Of a DNA stretch of 37,331 nt, positions 5,123 to 37,331 are shown piece by piece (positions within the stretch are counted from its first letter, which is position 1; each line of letters begins with the position of its first letter). The translations under genes and the position numbers were made by a program. Source of the DNA: a virus; the IMG/VR virus record IMGVR_UViG_3300046656_000299, positions 1-37,331 of that record, one strand, 5' to 3'. The notes beneath the pieces were generated by a model. It had not been told where the DNA came from, searched no databases, and saw only the letters and a program-made list of their open reading frames with translations.

Positions 5123-5350
5123 TTAAACTTCTTTTAAAACTCGTATATTAATTGCCTGCTGGCCACGGTGATTTTCTCCAAGTTCAAACTCTACTGGCTG
5201 TCCTTCTTTCAAGGTTTTAAAGCCATCTGATTGAATATTTGAATAATGAACAAAAACGTCGCCTGTGCCATCGTCTTTTGTTATAAAACCAAAACCCTGT
5301 CTCACATTAAACCAGCAAACCTTACCTCTTAAAACTTTATTTTCTGACAT
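5123..5350 (-). CDS. cold-shock domain protein (CspA family)
   Basis: 75 aa, the usual length of a bacterial CspA-type protein, and the whole sequence fits the five-stranded cold-shock beta barrel. [15 protein letters not shown] contains RNP1 (GFGFI) and DVFVHYSNI contains RNP2 (VFVHY). The [20 protein letters not shown] segment is the typical strand 4-5 region. These proteins bind single-stranded RNA/DNA and melt RNA secondary structure. The ATG has an excellent AAGGAG site and about 160 bp of AT-rich leader without a gene, so it may have its own promoter and be expressed out of step with its structural neighbours. A phage copy in a virion module is unusual; it could favour translation or antitermination of late mRNA. 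Confidence 0.93.
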
Positions 5351-10421: not shown

Positions 10422-11447
10422 TTAACCTGCAGCTACGCTCTTGCGGCCAACTGCGACACCTCGTGGATTGACAATTCCAATACCAACGATTTCGTTAACA
10501 ACCCAACCTAATTTAAGTTGTTTTGGCTCGTCTGCAGGAAGAACTTCGATATCCTGACGAACTGGCATAACGCCAACGAATTCTGGATCAGCAACGCCGA
10601 ATACAGTACCAACTGGAACAACTTTGCTAACGATTATATCCGCGCCCCAAAGGTGAGCAAATAAACCAGTTTGCAAGATTTCGCGTTGAGTAACCATATC
10701 AACTTCGCCACCAGTACCAGCAGCCTGACCACCACCAGCGCCCCAGTTAAGAATATCGTTAAACTCAACGATGTTCATGAGGAATTTGGTAGTAACCAAG
10801 TCCCAACGATCAACTTGGACTTTGATTTCTGAAAGATCACGCTTTAAGAGACCTGCGTCAGCAACGTCTTGAGCAGTGTTTTCACCACCCAAGCTTGAGT
10901 CGCCTGCAAAGTCTAATGCGGCAAAAATGTTAGCATCTTCTTGAGCCTGAATTTCTTGACGGGCCTTTTGCTGGGCACGGTCAATAACATTAAATCTTCG
11001 GCGTTTTACTTCGGCGATACGAACTGTTGGATTTGAGACGATCTCAAATTCTGGAACAGTTACGCGATCCGAGAAAACTCGTGATTCTGGTGCTGAACCG
11101 TTGCTTGAAACAACGACTGCAGCGACATCAATATCACGATCATAAACTGGCAAAGCACCTTGTGGAAGCGGATCTACTACAAGAACTCTACGACCAACTC
11201 CCTGATAATCCAAGTTTCTACGGATTGGATTTGCCATTGCTTGACCTAAAGCAACCTTACCTTCTGTCGTCATTAATGCTCGACGAATTAACTCATCCTT
11301 CTGCTCTTCGGTAAAAGAAGGGCTACCGGAAAGAGCATGATTCGATGGTTGATTTCTTTCTAAAATCGAAGCATATTTTACAATCTGTGAGAGAGCGTCG
11401 CGATCACTTAATGCGTTTAACTCTCCGTGAGTGTTGAACATACTCAT
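10422..11447 (-). CDS. major capsid protein (HK97 fold)
   Basis: 341 aa, ATG with GGAGG. The pattern is that of a HK97-type coat protein: a helical N-terminal arm (residues 1-75), then RRVLVVDPLPQGALPVYDRD, an E-loop-like basic stretch (AEVKRRRFNVIDRAQQKARQ) with a long spine helix (QEIQAQEDANIFAALD), a peripheral domain (DRWDLVTTKFLMNIVEFNDI) and a C-terminal GIGIVNPRGVAVGRKS strand. It lies between decoration-like paralogs and a strong terminator, suiting the most abundant virion protein. The N-terminal arm contains IVKYA at 22-26, the same [LIV]-x-K-x-A pattern found in the scaffold, so arm removal by the prohead protease is possible. The DNA uses more preferred-looking codons and less AT than its neighbours. 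Confidence 0.85.
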   Translation of the reverse strand: MSMFNTHGELNALSDRDALSQIVKYASILERNQPSNHALSGSPSFTEEQKDELIRRALMTTEGKVALGQAMANPIRRNLDYQGVGRRVLVVDPLPQGALPVYDRDIDVAAVVVSSNGSAPESRVFSDRVTVPEFEIVSNPTVRIAEVKRRRFNVIDRAQQKARQEIQAQEDANIFAALDFAGDSSLGGENTAQDVADAGLLKRDLSEIKVQVDRWDLVTTKFLMNIVEFNDILNWGAGGGQAAGTGGEVDMVTQREILQTGLFAHLWGADIIVSKVVPVGTVFGVADPEFVGVMPVRQDIEVLPADEPKQLKLGWVVNEIVGIGIVNPRGVAVGRKSVAAG

Positions 11448-11580: not shown

Positions 11581-12276
11581 TTAAAGATTGGCACCAAATC
11601 CTGCACCAAAATACTGAATAACTAAACGATCTGGGTTAGAAGTTGCCCCAACTAATCTTCCTGGAGTATTAACGAGAGATCTATTACTGGTCATTTCTAC
11701 AAACATAGCAACCTTATCTTCAGTATCAGAAAGGCTTGTTAATTTACCAGTATTATGTTCTCTATATATTAAATCACCTGGTAATGGGGTGTCATTTAAG
11801 TCACCCAATCCAGCACTTACGGCATCCAATGATACGGCATAAAGTCCTGGTTTATCCCAAAGTGTTACTTTACCAGAAGCAGCGGCGGTATGTGGGCCAA
11901 GATTGGCACTAACAGCGGTACCAAGACCAACTGGAGAACCTATTAATCCACCCAACATAGTTCCATATTTTGCTGTTCCATCGTCTATTAAATAAAAGGT
12001 TTTCCAAGGCTCTACCTTTATATCTCCCTTGCTTGCATCTAAAAACGAATCGCTATAACCATCAGCAAGACGGGCCACTACTCTAGTGCCAACATTTGCT
12101 CCATCTGCTACATAGCCGTCAAATACATCTGCGGCTGCTTTTTCAGAAGAAGTATTAAGTCTTGATGTTTTATCCAATACAGCCAACTCGCCACCAGTTA
12201 CAAGAGATAAGTCCGTATCTAGTAAGTCAAAGTCGCCAAGTGATTGTAAGCCAGGTTGTAAGATGTATAAAGCCAT
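11581..12276 (-). CDS. capsid decoration-like protein, paralog 1
   Basis: 231 aa, ATG with AGAGGA. It shares most of its length with the next gene upstream (12348-13004): the same start MALYILQPG, NTSSEKAAADVFDGYVADG, a LGPHTAAASGKVT-type strand, WDKPGLYAVS and a PGRLVGA-type end. Beta-rich, low charge, no hydrophobic segment. Two paralogs directly ahead of the capsid gene suggest abundant head decoration (cement) or other outer-shell proteins. A tail-tube role is an alternative. It has an insertion (DSFLDASKGDIKVEPW) absent from its paralog. Confidence 0.65.
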   Translation of the reverse strand: MALYILQPGLQSLGDFDLLDTDLSLVTGGELAVLDKTSRLNTSSEKAAADVFDGYVADGANVGTRVVARLADGYSDSFLDASKGDIKVEPWKTFYLIDDGTAKYGTMLGGLIGSPVGLGTAVSANLGPHTAAASGKVTLWDKPGLYAVSLDAVSAGLGDLNDTPLPGDLIYREHNTGKLTSLSDTEDKVAMFVEMTSNRSLVNTPGRLVGATSNPDRLVIQYFGAGFGANL

Positions 12277-12347: not shown

Positions 12348-13004
12348 TTAAGCGTTATGAGTAGCACCCAAGTATTGGATCACGATACGATCAAATACTT
12401 CACTTGCACCTACTAAGCGTGCTGGGGTATTTACTAATGAACCATTGCTAGCCATTTCTACGAACATAGCAATTTTATCGCTAGATCCTGGTGATTCTGC
12501 AAGAGAACTTAATTTACCAGTAGTAGCTCCACGATATAACAATGCACCTGGTAATGGAGTATCAGTTAAGTCGCTCAAATCTGCAAGAACGGCGCTTGTT
12601 GATACAGCATAAAGTCCTGGTTTATCCCAAGCAGTGACCTTGCCAGAAGCAGAGGCAGTGTGTGGGCCAAGATTAGTTCCGGTAGTAGTAAGGCCAGTTG
12701 GAACACCAATTACCTGACCGAATAATGTACCGTAACCTGCTTTTCCATCATCCAAGAGATAAAACAATTTACGACTTTCACTTGAAGTATCTGCAATGCG
12801 TAATATAACGCGTGTAGCGGCAGAAGAACCATCTGCTACATATCCGTCAAATACATCTGCTGCGGCTTTTTCGCTACTTGTATTAACGCGCGAAGCCTCG
12901 TCAAGAGTACCAACTTCTCCACCGACTACATTGGGTAAATCAGTATCATCACAATCGAAATCACCAAGGGGTTGAATTCCTGGTTGTAAAATATATAAAG
13001 CCAT
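12348..13004 (-). CDS. capsid decoration-like protein, paralog 2
   Basis: 218 aa, ATG with a strong GGGAGG site. Paralog of the following gene with the same opening residues and the same SSEKAAADVFDGYVADG block. It lacks the ~15-residue insertion near position 85. The hairpin behind it and a structured leader in front suggest separate control of expression. Role as for paralog 1: head surface protein most likely, not proven. Confidence 0.65.
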   Translation of the reverse strand: MALYILQPGIQPLGDFDCDDTDLPNVVGGEVGTLDEASRVNTSSEKAAADVFDGYVADGSSAATRVILRIADTSSESRKLFYLLDDGKAGYGTLFGQVIGVPTGLTTTGTNLGPHTASASGKVTAWDKPGLYAVSTSAVLADLSDLTDTPLPGALLYRGATTGKLSSLAESPGSSDKIAMFVEMASNGSLVNTPARLVGASEVFDRIVIQYLGATHNA

Positions 13005-24384: not shown

Positions 24385-25017
24385 TTAGCCATTTATCGCC
24401 CTGTCATCGTCTATTTTGTTTAAGACATTATTTATCTGTTCGATTAATTTTTTATATCCGTCCGCTGTTTTATCTGGATCGCCCATGCTTTTAGCGATAC
24501 TGCGCATTCCGCTAATATGATTTGCCAGCCACATTAAATCACCATAATTTAATTCATTTAAACTTTTTATACTTTTATTATATATACTACTTATTACTTG
24601 GTGCCCAAAACTATCTAATTCGCTCGCATCGTCTTTACTTACTGGGCCGCTGCTCCAAGGTTTTCCAGTCACAGGATTATGTGTGTTTATAGTTTGTTCC
24701 TCTGGCTTTTCTATACCTACCCTTTTACGAGCCGCATCCATATAATAAGCACACTCATCTGGGTCGTGCGCTTCATTTGATTTTGCGTTCATCAAATCTT
24801 GGGTTAGAAATTTAAATTCTTGTGTCGTTATGCCCAAGTCTTCATTGTTCATACCAAGCAAACCTTTTATGGCACCATCAAGATCGTCATTTTTAAGTGC
24901 TCTAAATAATTCATGTCTGCCTGCGTCTTTTTTAATTAAGGCGTCAATTTTAGCCACTTCTTTTGTATAACCGCGTTTGTCTAATTCATCGGCTAATTTA
25001 ATAAGGTTCTCAAGCAT
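24385..25017 (-). CDS. hairpin-module protein, function unknown
   Basis: 210 aa; the ATG overlaps the stop of the upstream gene (TAATG). Residues 1-30 (MLENLIKLADELDKRGYTKE ...) are the recurrent helical-hairpin module with LIKLA at 5-9. The rest is helical and acidic; the LNELNYGDLMWLANHISGM segment is echoed in two neighbours (LNYDDLMNLHKELV, LDEGALNSFLRYLSGK), so the genes may be distant paralogs in their C-terminal parts too. No catalytic motif seen. Confidence 0.6.
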   Translation of the reverse strand: MLENLIKLADELDKRGYTKEVAKIDALIKKDAGRHELFRALKNDDLDGAIKGLLGMNNEDLGITTQEFKFLTQDLMNAKSNEAHDPDECAYYMDAARKRVGIEKPEEQTINTHNPVTGKPWSSGPVSKDDASELDSFGHQVISSIYNKSIKSLNELNYGDLMWLANHISGMRSIAKSMGDPDKTADGYKKLIEQINNVLNKIDDDRAING

Positions 25018-30696: not shown

Positions 30697-31008
30697 TTAC
30701 ATTATATCTCGATCTTTCTTATTGTATAATTTTTGTCCAGTATTGCGCATAGAACGAACATTTTCCAATAACTTAAAGCCCGGTGTCCAGAACATTTGAA
30801 TATATTGCTCTGATACATAAAACTCTTGGGTTCCAGTATTAAATACTAATACTCCGCTGTCATTATCATAACTTATAAAAGTAGCACGAATTATCATGTT
30901 GCTTATAGACTGGGCTTCAGCGTATTGAACCCACTCAAGGTCATGATTTACAAGTATTTCCACTTCTTTATTTTTAAAGTTTTTTTCAAAAAATGATCCA
31001 AGTCCCAT
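30697..31008 (-). CDS. small beta-rich protein of unknown function
   Basis: 103 aa; its ATG overlaps the stop of the J-domain gene (TAATG) with AAGGG before it. The sequence alternates hydrophobic residues (IIRATFISYDNDSGVLVFNT, EFYVSEQYIQMFWTPGF) as in a small beta barrel (SH3-like?). No hairpin module. Position suggests that it works with the J-domain protein. Confidence 0.55.
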   Translation of the reverse strand: MGLGSFFEKNFKNKEVEILVNHDLEWVQYAEAQSISNMIIRATFISYDNDSGVLVFNTGTQEFYVSEQYIQMFWTPGFKLLENVRSMRNTGQKLYNKKDRDIM

Positions 31009-32126
31009 TATTCGCCCTTCTTTTTATTTATTTGTTCTTGAACTTGTTTTAGCATTTCAATTAACTCTGGCGGTTCCCATTCTGGCAAACGCTGTATCAT
31101 AACTTCTAATGCTTTAGATGCCTTGCCTTTATCCATGCGGGTCATATCTTTCTTACTATCATCGTAAGCATATTCGCCCACTATGTATCTTGGAAGAGCT
31201 GGCTTTGTTTTCCACGCCCACTCGTTGCTTTTTTCGCTTAATGGGTACTCTTTACCATTTATAATTAAAACTATATTTGGATTCGCAAAACTCTTTCCTC
31301 TTGCCAATGAAAAGACTAAACTTAATTTTCTGCCCTTCCAAGATTCTGGAGTTTTTTCACCCATTATATCCATAGCATCTTTAAATGATATGGATTTTCC
31401 AACACTACCCATGTGTGAAGATAATGTTGTATCATCTGAGAGTAAATTAACTTTGGCGTTGTATGGCTTAACATCAATAAAATTATTCCAGAGATCTCTA
31501 ATTATTCTTGGTGCCACCGATGACAATGGTTCTGGTTTTGGCGCTGTTTTAACCCAAACCTTATGATCATCTAGATTTTGATGAGTAAAGGCATTTGCTA
31601 CACGCTTATTGTATATACCTACAAATACATGTTCACTTTCGGTAGTCCCATATACCACAAACCCGCTGACATTAGTGTCAAATCCATAAGTTCCATATTG
31701 CTTACCTGTGGCAAATTTCCACTTGACACCTGCTGGAATATCGGCTTTGGATATAGCTTGGTCAAAAGAATCACCGGTTTGTTCATCAGTATACATCTTA
31801 TCCTTTTTATGAACAGAGGGAGCTGTGGGCGGAGTATGTGTTTTATCTGGCACGGCATCACCAACTAATATATCTCTGGCAACATTAACTTGTTTCATTA
31901 TTTCTGGGTCGCCACCTCTATCTGGATGGTGTTCAAGTGCCTTTTGTTTCCAAGCCTTTTGAATTTCTTCATTGGAGGCACCATGAGAAACTTCCAATAG
32001 GTTTCTTGCCTCATCTAACCCCATGGCTAGACGAATTATTATATCATCCAGAATATCGGCCTCTTTAAATAAATTAAGACTATCTAGATGATTAGCTAAT
32101 GAAATAAGTCTTTTAAACTGGTTCAT
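31008..32126 (-). CDS. J-domain (DnaJ-like) protein with hairpin module
   Basis: 372 aa, ATG with AGGAAG, overlapping the stop of the small zinc gene (ATGA). Module at 1-34 (LISLANHLDSLNLFKEADIL), then a J-domain at ~37-89 with helix II (NEEIQKAWKQKALEHHPDRG) and the intact HPD (67-69) needed to stimulate Hsp70 ATPase. No Gly/Phe region or zinc domain, so a class III type. The rest (~110-372) has a fold I do not recognise (ADIPAGVKWKFATGKQYGTY; LSLVFSLARGKSFANPNIVL). If packaged, it could recruit host DnaK on entry; alternatively it helps assembly. Confidence 0.78.
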   Translation of the reverse strand: MNQFKRLISLANHLDSLNLFKEADILDDIIIRLAMGLDEARNLLEVSHGASNEEIQKAWKQKALEHHPDRGGDPEIMKQVNVARDILVGDAVPDKTHTPPTAPSVHKKDKMYTDEQTGDSFDQAISKADIPAGVKWKFATGKQYGTYGFDTNVSGFVVYGTTESEHVFVGIYNKRVANAFTHQNLDDHKVWVKTAPKPEPLSSVAPRIIRDLWNNFIDVKPYNAKVNLLSDDTTLSSHMGSVGKSISFKDAMDIMGEKTPESWKGRKLSLVFSLARGKSFANPNIVLIINGKEYPLSEKSNEWAWKTKPALPRYIVGEYAYDDSKKDMTRMDKGKASKALEVMIQRLPEWEPPELIEMLKQVQEQINKKKGE

Positions 32127-32284
32127 TTGAACTTCCTGCTCCTAATATTTTTAGTAGAATAGGTTTTTGTGGTATTTTTTTGCTTATTTTTACAATCACC
32201 ACATTTTGCTTTTGGTGGAGATACATAAACACCCTTTTTATGAACGATTAGTGCTTTTTTATTTTTATTGCATGGGCATGACAT
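32123..32284 (-). CDS. 53-aa Cys-motif (zinc-binding) protein
   Basis: ATG at 32284 with AAGGTGA upstream; the stop overlaps the start of the J-domain gene (ATGA), which argues for a real coupled gene. The peptide has CPC (3-5) and CGDC (28-31), likely a single zinc site, and is very basic (many Lys/Asn). Possibly binds nucleic acid. Together with 26843-27010 it makes two tiny zinc proteins in this cluster. Confidence 0.72.
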   Translation of the reverse strand: MSCPCNKNKKALIVHKKGVYVSPPKAKCGDCKNKQKNTTKTYSTKNIRSRKFK

Positions 32285-32313
32285 TTAATCACCTTTTTAT
32301 TAGTAGAATTAAC

Positions 32314-32349
32314 TTTTTTTCGTTTTTTTGTCGATTTTTGCGAAAAAAA
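32314..32349. repeat. 9-bp inverted repeat beside the plus-strand promoter
   Basis: TTTTTTTCG (32314-32322) and CGAAAAAAA (32341-32349) are perfect inverted copies separated by 18 bp, ending one base before the -35 hexamer. The A/T-rich arms could serve as an UP element or as an operator. Confidence 0.5.
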
Positions 32350-32350
32350 C

Positions 32351-32379
32351 TTGACAAATGTCTTCAAACTTGCTATAAT
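32351..32379 (+). promoter_or_regulatory. consensus sigma-70 promoter on the plus strand
   Basis: TTGACA (32351-32356), a 17-bp spacer and TATAAT (32374-32379) match the bacterial consensus exactly, with an A-rich block directly upstream. Transcription would start near 32386 and run rightward, antisense to the 3' end of the giant gene. No plus-strand gene follows: GGAGGA at 32399 has no start codon at a suitable distance. It may drive an antisense or small RNA. Confidence 0.65.
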
Positions 32380-32470
32380 GATCAATTCATTCGTCACCGG
32401 AGGAAGATCACTAGTAGAAGGGGTTTAAGTATTAATAGTAGTCTAATATAAGTGATATATCCTGATTAAA

Positions 32471-35400
32471 CTACTCTTCCTTCATCCTCATTATAATCCA
32501 CTTCTTTCCATCAGTTTTATGTAAGGTATAAGCCCCCTTTTCTTTACTGCCCTTTAATTTAAACTTAATAGTATCTCTTTTCCACTCAACCAATTCGTAA
32601 GTTCCACTATCGTGTATTTTTACATCACCTTTTCCATAGCCTTCTGATATTTCGCCCTTAAACTTATTGTAGGCTATGGGATGATCTTCGGTTTGTTGAG
32701 CAAATAACCTCTCGCCATCAGTAGGTAATTTATGTTTTGGAATAGCAAATGAGGTCATAGTTCCATTATCATTTTCTAATCTTAAATCAAAATGTAGCCC
32801 AGCCTTATCAGCATCATGTTTTTGAATTACAAATCTGTGCTTGTTTTTGCCTTTTTCTATACTACCTTCTGGTTCTTTGGTTTCGTTAAAATCTCGCATA
32901 TTTTTATATTTAAAAAGAGGGTCTTTGGCTATTTTTTTATTAATCGCTGGTTTTTGGTCTTTAAGTATTTGCTCAAATCCACGATGTAGTTCTTTAATAA
33001 ACTTACTATGTTTATCAGGATCGTATTTTTTAAAATGTTTTAATGTATCATCGTAATTTTCTATATATCTTTTAAATCTATTTTTCATTAATTCTATTCT
33101 ATTATTAAGATCTAATTGATATATATTTTTAATTTTCTGATCAGCAATCATTTTTTGGTCAAAGAAATCAATTCCTGGGTCTCTCATCATTCTTTGCATT
33201 CTACCTAATGAATCCTCTAAACGAGAATAAAATTCAACATCAGAAAGTGCATGTTGTTTGTCAAATTCCCTATCTTCGCCAGGAAGTCCAGAATACATGT
33301 GATATTTACTTTTATCGTATTTTCCAGGAATGCCAGCGTGCCAGTTTTTGTTTTTTAAATTATCATTGCGAAGTTTGATGGCATAAGTCATTAAATCTTG
33401 CATTAAATGAACTAATTCATGAGATAATGTTCTAATAAATCCAGTCTCACTTGCCTGTTCATTAGGTAATTTCTGAATATGTATTATGGGTTTCCCAGTA
33501 TTGATTGGTGAATCATACCATCCCTCATCTTTATCACCCACAGACACATTTACATCTACTTCTTTAAATGTGTCTTTTAATAATTCATCAATTTCTTTTT
33601 TAAAATTTAGATATTGTTTTGTTCCAGAAGGATCTACTTTAAAAGATTTAATTGAATTGGATTGAATTTGTCCCTCGGCGTCTTTATATGGTTCAACTTG
33701 TGTAGGCAAAGACATATTAGTTTTAACACTATGTAGATAATTACTTAACCTATTAACTAAAATATCAACCTCATATAGATGTTTTTGATAATTTAGTAAA
33801 TTATTTCGTATGAGCCACCCTAAACCATTTGTCTCGTCCCATTGTATTTTTGATTTTTTTAATCTAATTCGCTCAAAAATAAAATTTTCAAATTCCCATT
33901 CTTCGTATTGATTTTGTTTATGCCCACTTTCAATTTTCTTTATTATATCTTCTATGTGTTTTATTAATCTCTGCCTATCTTTTCCCAAATAACTTTCATC
34001 TATTATATCAACTTCTAAAGTATTATTTTCTTTATTGTAAGTAAATTTAAATAAATCATACATTAAATCTGCATCACAATCATTATATTTCATTTCTGGT
34101 TCGCCATATGTTAATCTGATTTCTTGCAAACTGGGCCAACATTTATAAGGAACGCCTGATATTATTTTATCGTTATTTTCATAAATTTTAAAATCTGTAT
34201 TTTCATTATTTATGGTTATATTATAACTGCCCTCAGAATCTGTATTAGCCTGTTCTAAAATAGTACCATTGGCTATTTTGTCAAAAAATCCATCTTGAGA
34301 ATTCTGCTTGTCAGAATGTATGCCATGAAAAAATGCAATAAACTTATCTATATTGAGATTTTTATTAATTGGAATATTAAGATTTTTAGCAAAATCAGTT
34401 ATACTTCCTTTACCACCGCTTTTTATCATTTCAAGTAAAAAATTTATATTTTTTTTATATTTTTCGGATTGTAGTCTAAAATCACTAACAGCCAATGTTT
34501 TTAATAAAGGTATGGCCCATTGATAAATTTCATTAACCATTTTTACAGGAACTTCTATATTTCCAGCTAATTTAGAAATAGATTTTCTACCAAAATTAAA
34601 TTTTTTTTTACTTCCATCGTTCCATAATTCTACTTTTTCTATTGTAAAGGAACCATGCGGAACATCACCATCATACTTTTCTTTACCCTCTTCCATGTAT
34701 TCAAGAGTTATATGTGGTTTATAGGTAGGAAAATTATCTTCCATCTCTATACCAGCATCTTTAACTGCTTTTTTTAATTTTTTATTTAATTCATGTAAAT
34801 CATCTGATATTATTTTTATCTTGGCGACCTTACAATTATCTGATTGTTTTGTGGCGGGAAAATAACTAACCCTGTCATCTAATTTTACCTTAAATGGTTT
34901 TTGGTCTTTTAAAACCTCTTTAATAGTTTTTTTTAACAACTCTTCTTGTTTTTTAGGAACCTTGCCAATAAAAAGAACGGTTATATGTGGCTTACTACTA
35001 TCGTGTTTTCCTAATGACGGAAATTGTTTTGCTAATTCTTTTGGGACAATAGCAAATATCCCCGCTTTATAATGTTTCTTCGCTTCCTTAGATATGTATT
35101 TTTTGTGTAAGCATGGAATAGCAACGACTAAAGTAGATCCACAATTGCAGTCTCTATATACATGATCTATTTCTGGTTGTTCAAATTCTTCTCCACACAT
35201 CAGCCCGACATCATCTGTTGTTATTTCTGGCACCACTTTATCTCTAAATGGCTGATTAAAAAACTCTTCGTAGTTATTATATTTTTTTCCACAAACCTTA
35301 CATTCTTTTGGAAATTCTTGAACGGAAGCTTTAGAGAATAAAGGAATTACATTATTTACATTAAAATATTCAGGATACTTTTCTTTTAATACCTTATCAG

Positions 35401-37331
35401 AATTATTTTGTAAATCTTTTAAAACACCCTTTAATTTATTTACAAGTGGAATTAACTTTGGGCCATATTCTCTAAATATTTGTTCGTTTAATTGTTTATG
35501 TTCATCAATAACAATTAAATTAACTGCCACCTTATATTGTTTATCTGGTGCCTGATATGGTTCTAATTTATAAGAATTTACCACCCAATGAATATAGGCT
35601 TTCGGCTCGTCGCTTATTGGCAGATTTCCACGAATTGTATCTATTATTGGAGTTTTTACTGGCTTTCCGTTTTCCATAGTATAATAATTAAGCGTATCTA
35701 CTTTTCCAGGAAGTTGCTTTAGGTCTTCTATTATAGAACTTGGTATGCCAGACAATTCTATCATTTCACCAGCTCTTTTAGAAATAGAGGCTTTTTTATT
35801 TAAAGCGTGTTCTGCTATTTCTTTTAAATGATGAAAGTCTTTGAACCTTTCTAATGGCATAATAGTATCTAAAAAGAACTTGGGGTTTTTATTAGCAAGA
35901 GCAAACATAGCACCATCTAATAAGTCGCTTAATTCGGGCTCGTCGAATAATCCAAGTGTAAAGTATAAGTGTGGCTTAAAAGAAAGTAAATTAATTGCTG
36001 CCTGACGAGTATAGTGCTTAAATTCTGGTTGTTTATAATATTTACCAACGAAAAAAGCAGCGGGGTTTTCTTCTATTGTTGTTTGTATATTTTCTTCGGC
36101 TCGTTTAGATAAACTAACACCCGCTTCCTTTTCAGTTATTTCCACTTGAACTTTTTGAGGATCTATGATATTTCTGGCATTATTGGCACTTTCTATGTAG
36201 TCGGGATAGAATTGATCTAACCCAAGATCAAAGAAGGATCCGGGATTATTGTCGATTAATCTTATAACAGCTCCCCTTCCTAATTCTGGAAACTTTTCAT
36301 TTAAATAATAATAAAAGAAAGCACGGGCATCTTGTTGTGCCAATGCCTCCGCTGCTGGTTTCATTAAGTCTTTATATTCCTGTTCTTCGCGCTCGTTATA
36401 TTTAAAAACAAAATAAAATTTAGCATTGTCTTTTATAATGTTTTTAAGCGCCTCTATTTCCAATTTAGGATATTGTTTATGGAGCCCTTTGTAGAAAAAC
36501 TTATCGGGTTCAGATGTAGATAGTGATTTCGCCTCTGCCTCGGAAAGTTCTGACGAATTACCGATTTCTTTATTTCTAAACATCGGCATTTTTTCAAAAA
36601 AATCGCCCATTTCGTCGTCTTTTCCAAATCCCATATCGTTTTGAGTTTGTTCTTTGGGAATATTCACTTCTGGATTTTCACCTACTCTAATTGACAAAGA
36701 TGCTTTTTTACTTGCCTTTAATGGCTCTTTAACTCCACCCTTTGTTTCGTGAATAGCATAGGGCACACGAATGTTTCCATTGTTTTTAAGAGTTGTGGTG
36801 TCTGTTCTTACTCCATTACCTTTAACAATACCAGTAGTAAATCCTTCATATTTTTCATTTAACTTTTCACAAAGATCGTGTAGTTCATCGCGTAAAGCAT
36901 CTGTGTCTTTTTCTTGTTTTAATTCGAATTCAATATGATAACCAGATCCACCACTATCATAAATAATTGGATTTGTATTGTATTTTGTTTTTATTTCATC
37001 AGCAGCCTCTTTGGCGTATTCCTGAACCTTGGCATCAGAAAAATCACCATGAACATCTAAATCAACAAATCCCAATTTTGTCTTTTTTCCAAATACACGA
37101 TGGATCCCTGTCATTCTACGATCTGCCCAATATTCTAAATCTTCTTTATTTTTAATTACTATTGGCTTATCATTATGATGGCGTTTTAATATTTTTTCAC
37201 CTTTCCCTGTCCCAATATAAATCATAACAGGATGATTGTCTATTTCTTTTAATATTTTATCGGCATTTTTAACATAATGGTCTCGTATTTCTTTTCGTGT
37301 CCATTTTTGCCCATCGTGGTCTATTAAAACT
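32471..37331 (-). CDS. giant multidomain protein: LigD-type polymerase, 2H phosphoesterase, metallopeptidase, LigD-type 3'-phosphoesterase; 5' end missing
   Basis: The frame is open at the right edge: 1619 codons are visible and the true start lies outside. Numbering from the first in-window Met (37225), the 35 residues before it (VLIDHDGQKWTRKEIRDHYV ...) match the start of LigD polymerase domains. Polymerase domain to ~170: DLD (D55, D57), SGGSGYH (91-97), and RTDTTTLKNNGNIRVPYAIH, so the metal and NTP sites look intact. Helical FF-type repeats lie at ~240-475. Cys clusters: C642/C645, C677, C693/C695, C705. 2H phosphoesterase at ~715-880 with HITV (747) and HITL (838). HELVH (1269-1273) metallopeptidase-like unit. 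The 3'-phosphoesterase at ~1460-1584 keeps the known catalytic positions (H1470, H1478, D1480, R1482, H1515). LSKRA/ISKRA/ISKLA/FDKIA sites at 372, 481, 883 and 981 separate these parts. No ligase domain is visible. Confidence 0.8.
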   Translation of the reverse strand, partial: VLIDHDGQKWTRKEIRDHYVKNADKILKEIDNHPVMIYIGTGKGEKILKRHHNDKPIVIKNKEDLEYWADRRMTGIHRVFGKKTKLGFVDLDVHGDFSDAKVQEYAKEAADEIKTKYNTNPIIYDSGGSGYHIEFELKQEKDTDALRDELHDLCEKLNEKYEGFTTGIVKGNGVRTDTTTLKNNGNIRVPYAIHETKGGVKEPLKASKKASLSIRVGENPEVNIPKEQTQNDMGFGKDDEMGDFFEKMPMFRNKEIGNSSELSEAEAKSLSTSEPDKFFYKGLHKQYPKLEIEALKNIIKDNAKFYFVFKYNEREEQEYKDLMKPAAEALAQQDARAFFYYYLNEKFPELGRGAVIRLIDNNPGSFFDLGLDQFYPDYIESANNARNIIDPQKVQVEITEKEAGVSLSKRAEENIQTTIEENPAAFFVGKYYKQPEFKHYTRQAAINLLSFKPHLYFTLGLFDEPELSDLLDGAMFALANKNPKFFLDTIMPLERFKDFHHLKEIAEHALNKKASISKRAGEMIELSGIPSSIIEDLKQLPGKVDTLNYYTMENGKPVKTPIIDTIRGNLPISDEPKAYIHWVVNSYKLEPYQAPDKQYKVAVNLIVIDEHKQLNEQIFREYGPKLIPLVNKLKGVLKDLQNNSDKVLKEKYPEYFNVNNVIPLFSKASVQEFPKECKVCGKKYNNYEEFFNQPFRDKVVPEITTDDVGLMCGEEFEQPEIDHVYRDCNCGSTLVVAIPCLHKKYISKEAKKHYKAGIFAIVPKELAKQFPSLGKHDSSKPHITVLFIGKVPKKQEELLKKTIKEVLKDQKPFKVKLDDRVSYFPATKQSDNCKVAKIKIISDDLHELNKKLKKAVKDAGIEMEDNFPTYKPHITLEYMEEGKEKYDGDVPHGSFTIEKVELWNDGSKKKFNFGRKSISKLAGNIEVPVKMVNEIYQWAIPLLKTLAVSDFRLQSEKYKKNINFLLEMIKSGGKGSITDFAKNLNIPINKNLNIDKFIAFFHGIHSDKQNSQDGFFDKIANGTILEQANTDSEGSYNITINNENTDFKIYENNDKIISGVPYKCWPSLQEIRLTYGEPEMKYNDCDADLMYDLFKFTYNKENNTLEVDIIDESYLGKDRQRLIKHIEDIIKKIESGHKQNQYEEWEFENFIFERIRLKKSKIQWDETNGLGWLIRNNLLNYQKHLYEVDILVNRLSNYLHSVKTNMSLPTQVEPYKDAEGQIQSNSIKSFKVDPSGTKQYLNFKKEIDELLKDTFKEVDVNVSVGDKDEGWYDSPINTGKPIIHIQKLPNEQASETGFIRTLSHELVHLMQDLMTYAIKLRNDNLKNKNWHAGIPGKYDKSKYHMYSGLPGEDREFDKQHALSDVEFYSRLEDSLGRMQRMMRDPGIDFFDQKMIADQKIKNIYQLDLNNRIELMKNRFKRYIENYDDTLKHFKKYDPDKHSKFIKELHRGFEQILKDQKPAINKKIAKDPLFKYKNMRDFNETKEPEGSIEKGKNKHRFVIQKHDADKAGLHFDLRLENDNGTMTSFAIPKHKLPTDGERLFAQQTEDHPIAYNKFKGEISEGYGKGDVKIHDSGTYELVEWKRDTIKFKLKGSKEKGAYTLHKTDGKKWIIMRMKEE

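Follow-up and report, generated by a model that had tools for sequence, protein, structure and literature searches.

The window analysed is the whole of a 37331-base virus record (G000), in which all recognised genes lie on the minus strand. The element studied here sits in a gap of 186 bp (32285-32470) that separates the 3' end of a giant gene from a gene of 52 aa (Table 1). The parts of the giant protein are separated by repeated SxSKRAG-like linkers. The major capsid gene (10422-11447) matches phrog_2522, and its product is 54% identical to the Bacillus phage G counterpart across 79% of its length; relatives were found on virus contigs, the longest of them 435 kb. The proteins at 24385, 25017, 26997, 29934, 30271 and 31008 (minus strand) were seen, as cross-hits in relatives, to have a similar N-terminal segment of ~30-35 residues, which could serve as a virion-targeting or propeptide tag. 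The genes at 11581-12276 and 12348-13004 (minus strand), immediately upstream of the capsid gene, both matched the same positions in relatives and look like paralogues. A leftward terminator in the A/T block of the gap was rejected, as this block gave a weak hairpin only (z −0.94).

Table 1. Features of the locus and of the late-type motif, in window coordinates
Feature	Position	Strand	Remarks
Giant gene, 1584 aa	32471-37225	-	Stop codon 32471-32473; would-be antisense target
Giant protein domains			Weak LigD prim-pol-like N-terminus; LigT/2'-5' RNA ligase-like; LigD_N 3'-phosphoesterase
Hairpin, 11 bp, at giant gene's stop codon	32436-32475	-	In minus-strand RNA; fold z −2.43
Predicted non-coding RNA start region	32385-32470	+	Complementary to giant gene's 3' untranslated region
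GGAGGA	32399-32404	+	No ATG, GTG or TTG in reach
Predicted transcription start	near A32385	+	Predicted from promoter position
-10 box TATAAT	32374-32379	+	
Extended -10, TGCTATAAT	32371-32379	+	TG one base ahead of TATAAT
-35 box TTGACA	32351-32356	+	17-nt spacer to -10
A-tract GCGAAAAAAA	32340-32349	+	Immediately upstream of -35 box; UP-element-like, putative function
Inverted repeat (9 bp), right arm CGAAAAAAA	32341-32349	+	Inside A-tract
Inverted repeat (9 bp), left arm TTTTTTTCG	32314-32322	+	
Motif copy TCTACTAATA	32298-32307	-	Back-to-back with sigma70 site; TA box out of register
Small cysteine-containing gene, 52 aa	32127-32284	-	Downstream of gap; end overlaps start of DnaJ-domain gene
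DnaJ-domain gene	31008-32126	-	
TCTAYTAATA motif starts	13121, 28548, 5451, 10331, 32307	-	

The gap contains a perfect core of the sigma70 class, TTGACA-17-TATAAT (32351-32379, plus strand), which matches at 12 of 12 positions and has its hexamers within the 16-18 nt range of that class, the host's own sigma consensus being assumed to be alike. An earlier note on this DNA had described the core, together with an upstream A-rich block and a 9-bp inverted repeat, as the best promoter-like sequence in the window, facing against all genes. The elements were recovered within a few bases of the positions it gave, no other perfect match occurs in the window, and the orientation against every recognised gene stands as described. 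The start, placed there near 32386, is now predicted near 32385. The flank at 32285-32350 is 77% AT. Two further sequence features were observed at the locus. A 10-bp palindrome, GACAAATGTC, lies across the -35 box (32353-32362) and is operator-like; its second copy in the window is at the start codon of the gene ending at 5350. The sequence TTCTACTA has three minus-strand copies (32159, 32308, 32419) in ~270 bp and five on that strand in the whole window.

Perfect matches of this kind are rare. Four of 100 whole-window shuffles contained one, and the number expected in the intergenic bases is ~0.008, or 0.0001 when the TG and the 17-nt spacer are included. When scored with a sigma70 matrix whose frequencies were taken from general knowledge, the site reached 14.8, while 9.6 was the highest score of any other gap site across the window, G004 and G001. 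Of 2000 shuffled gap sets, which preserve base composition only, one had a best site that reached 14.8. All of these figures refer to a site that had been preselected as the best of many features. The core was also calibrated on other viruses by scanning virus contigs for ACTTGACA-N14-TGCTATAAT, with genes approximated as ORFs of at least 50 aa. Among the usable matches listed, 48 of 73 (66%) were intergenic, compared with 41 of 400 random positions (10%), from which it was deduced that the core usually marks a real promoter. Nine intergenic matches among those listed looked at first as if they pointed away from the following gene; on reading, these mostly have a sense ORF close behind, and one has a tmRNA ~130 bases on. 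By this comparison, a core with nothing recognisable behind it, as here, is unusual. The earlier reading of a real host-type promoter is thus well supported by the statistics and the calibration, and 32351-32379 is predicted to be, with good probability, a genuine promoter of the host-sigma70 class. Perfect sigma70 sites numbered two in 30 records, and sites with up to two mismatches were no commoner than a reversed control pattern, so that no general reliance of the phage group on sigma70 consensus sites was seen. A host origin of the promoter was also considered; the core together with GATC occurs in seven Clostridia contigs, which is too few to name a host.

The gene strand carries a different promoter-like motif, TCTAYTAATA, whose five window copies each lie in a gap on the minus strand; gaps make up 4.6% of the bases. 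Across 66 non-redundant capsid-gene loci, 44 copies were found on the gene strand and 4 on the opposite strand, and none of 629 letter permutations of the motif exceeded 21. When the copies were aligned, a TA (T 90%, A 76%) emerged as a second box with constant spacing from the first. The full bipartite motif, aaaTCTAYTAATAwtt-N5-TA, is strand-specific, intergenic and also present in many relatives, and is probably the late promoter of the phage group; among the papers listed by a full-text literature search, none was found in which the motif string serves as a phage promoter. Sigma-70 region 2 was matched in 7 of 11 records searched, 4 of them above the Pfam cut-off, the proteins being of ~190-230 aa (L132-L137 in G011, G004, G006, G007, G026 and G009, and one in G022). 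The RNA polymerase family PF00562 was matched in none of the 11 records, a search in which genes can be missed on fragments; neither family was matched in the window. Given a sigma factor in several relatives, in which no subunit of an RNA polymerase was detected, early transcription by the host holoenzyme is expected. We infer that host polymerase with the phage sigma factor would read the TCTAYTAATA motif late, and that the site at 32351-32379 would belong to a host-type, early class.

With the predicted start 86 nt beyond the end of the giant gene, the plus-strand RNA would be antisense first to the 3' untranslated region and then to the coding end, and the earlier claim of a non-coding RNA antisense to this gene follows from the geometry. 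No plus-strand ORF with a ribosome site was found behind the promoter, and a coding product was rejected on this ground; the plus-strand ORFs across the start region, 32167-32451 and 32351-32428, are open upstream of the start site. The GGAGGA indeed lacks a start codon, as had been stated before. Since nothing codes behind the promoter and all recognised genes oppose it, an antisense RNA would be its only evident product. The downstream inverted repeat previously located at 32409-32453 exists, with corrected arms at 32407-32412 (ATCACT) and 32451-32456 (AGTGAT). The suggestion that it folds was not supported, as the plus-strand RNA was no more stably folded than shuffled sequences (z −0.4 to +1.3). 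A search of Rfam with the same RNA gave no match, and on both results a structured form of the small RNA, another of the earlier candidates, was rejected. No intrinsic terminator-like site was found on the plus strand from 32386 to 37331, a kind of search to which Rho-dependent ends are invisible.

Conservation in relatives, which the earlier note had proposed as a check, was examined by a GenBank phage DNA search with 32000-33000, an exact 22-mer scan, and scans with the giant C-terminus, the giant's middle domain, the DnaJ-like protein and one neighbouring gene. These searches returned only G004, G005 and G010, and G010 stops short of the locus, leaving G004 and G005 as the syntenic relatives found. 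In both, the giant gene overlaps the next gene, with no gap and no promoter element, and so the element looks specific to the window's lineage as far as can be seen. LigD_N-like homologues occur in G006, G007, G011 and G012; the comparison of the gap covered G004 and G005. Weak DNA matches to the gap at G012 28354 and G015 9955 were read and are not promoters, and at G011 8242 another has TTGACA preceded by an A-tract, without a perfect -10 box. An assembly chimera was rejected as unlikely, since gene order from the giant gene through its downstream neighbours is conserved in G004 and G005.

Cis-antisense RNAs of the OOP type are characterised by a decrease in target mRNA that is linked to RNase III. 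The lambda promoter pO is located just downstream of the cII 3' end and points back into cII, and OOP RNA is short, terminates at tO and has a 52-base overlap with cII (PMC5869508). The promoter described here is likewise past the 3' end of a gene and directed back into it, whereas no terminator, and with it no short RNA ending at one, was seen here, 86 nt separate the start from the stop codon and a giant gene would be the target. For the virulent phage PAK_P3, 15 of 20 antisense RNAs are in the structural region and early, and early silencing has been proposed for antisense RNAs over its late-region genes (PMC4933390). Antisense transcription across late-region genes, predicted in the present case, is the feature in common; the PAK_P3 RNAs come from RNA-seq measurements and, with one exception, lie inside genes, whereas here a single predicted promoter lies in a gap. 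Phages 7-11 and phiEco32 transcribe their early genes with host sigma70 and have bipartite late promoters that are read with a phage sigma factor (PMC8948821); a sigma factor and a bipartite motif are likewise present in the relatives studied here. The motifs themselves differ, being GTAAtg-16-aCTA in 7-11 and TCTAYTAATA-N8-TA here, and the main text of PMC8948821 does not contain the word 'antisense'.

With a probability of roughly 0.4, we propose that the host-sigma70 promoter yields an early non-coding antisense RNA that interferes with the giant-gene mRNA. Host RNA polymerase would initiate near 32385, the first 86 nt of the non-coding plus-strand RNA would pair with the giant gene's 3' untranslated region and, if the RNA extends further, it would be complementary to the coding end. 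Interference with leaking giant-gene mRNA could then occur via pairing or head-on transcription. Such an RNA would belong to the early phase, given that transcription of the leftward genes seems to depend on another class of promoter, of the phage-sigma type. This proposal is favoured by a core that is perfect, rare and intergenic and that elsewhere usually has a sense gene or RNA behind it. The earlier claim that an antisense RNA restrains the giant gene early also has the above precedents on its side, but is weakened by the absence of the element in G004 and G005, the two relatives bearing the locus, and of a plus-strand terminator, as well as by folding at chance level and the lack of group-wide sigma70 enrichment. 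That the scheme holds in full, with sigma-encoding jumbo phages using early antisense from a sigma70 promoter, back-to-back with a late-type promoter, to restrain a giant RNA-ligase/phosphoesterase-like protein until the phage sigma takes over, is unlikely.

Of the specific readings, antisense restraint of the giant gene is the best, though as yet unproven. Nearly as likely is an orphan or vestigial promoter, arisen by chance or left behind by an early gene since lost, which may fire but regulates nothing. The lack of conservation in the two syntenic relatives, of a product and of structure is consistent with such an origin, as are the AT-rich gap and the selection of the site as best of many; moreover, the gene or RNA usually found directly behind the core elsewhere is missing here, as it would be behind a vestige. 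This is countered by the perfect consensus with TG and A-tract at the 1-in-2000 level, and a promoter long unused should decay. The core precedes a tmRNA in another virus and can therefore serve RNA genes, which together with the GGAGGA would suit a short RNA or tiny peptide acting elsewhere than on the giant gene; given that there is no usable start codon, Rfam match, terminator or fold better than shuffles, we regard this as improbable. It would be more surprising still if the promoter primed replication within an origin or drove plus-strand genes past the window's right end. The AT-rich flank would fit the former and the end of the contig at 37331, beyond which the sequence lies outside the record, the latter; however, GC skew does not change at the site, genes of relatives on both sides of the giant gene are mostly co-oriented, and G004 and G001 are almost wholly unidirectional.

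To our knowledge, few antisense RNAs of such a kind are known in uncultured jumbo phages. If the promoter fires, it would provide a further case in these phages of antisense transcription over a late-region gene, of a kind already known from a few viruses. The late-type motif would give a culture-free sequence handle on the late gene programme of the phage group.
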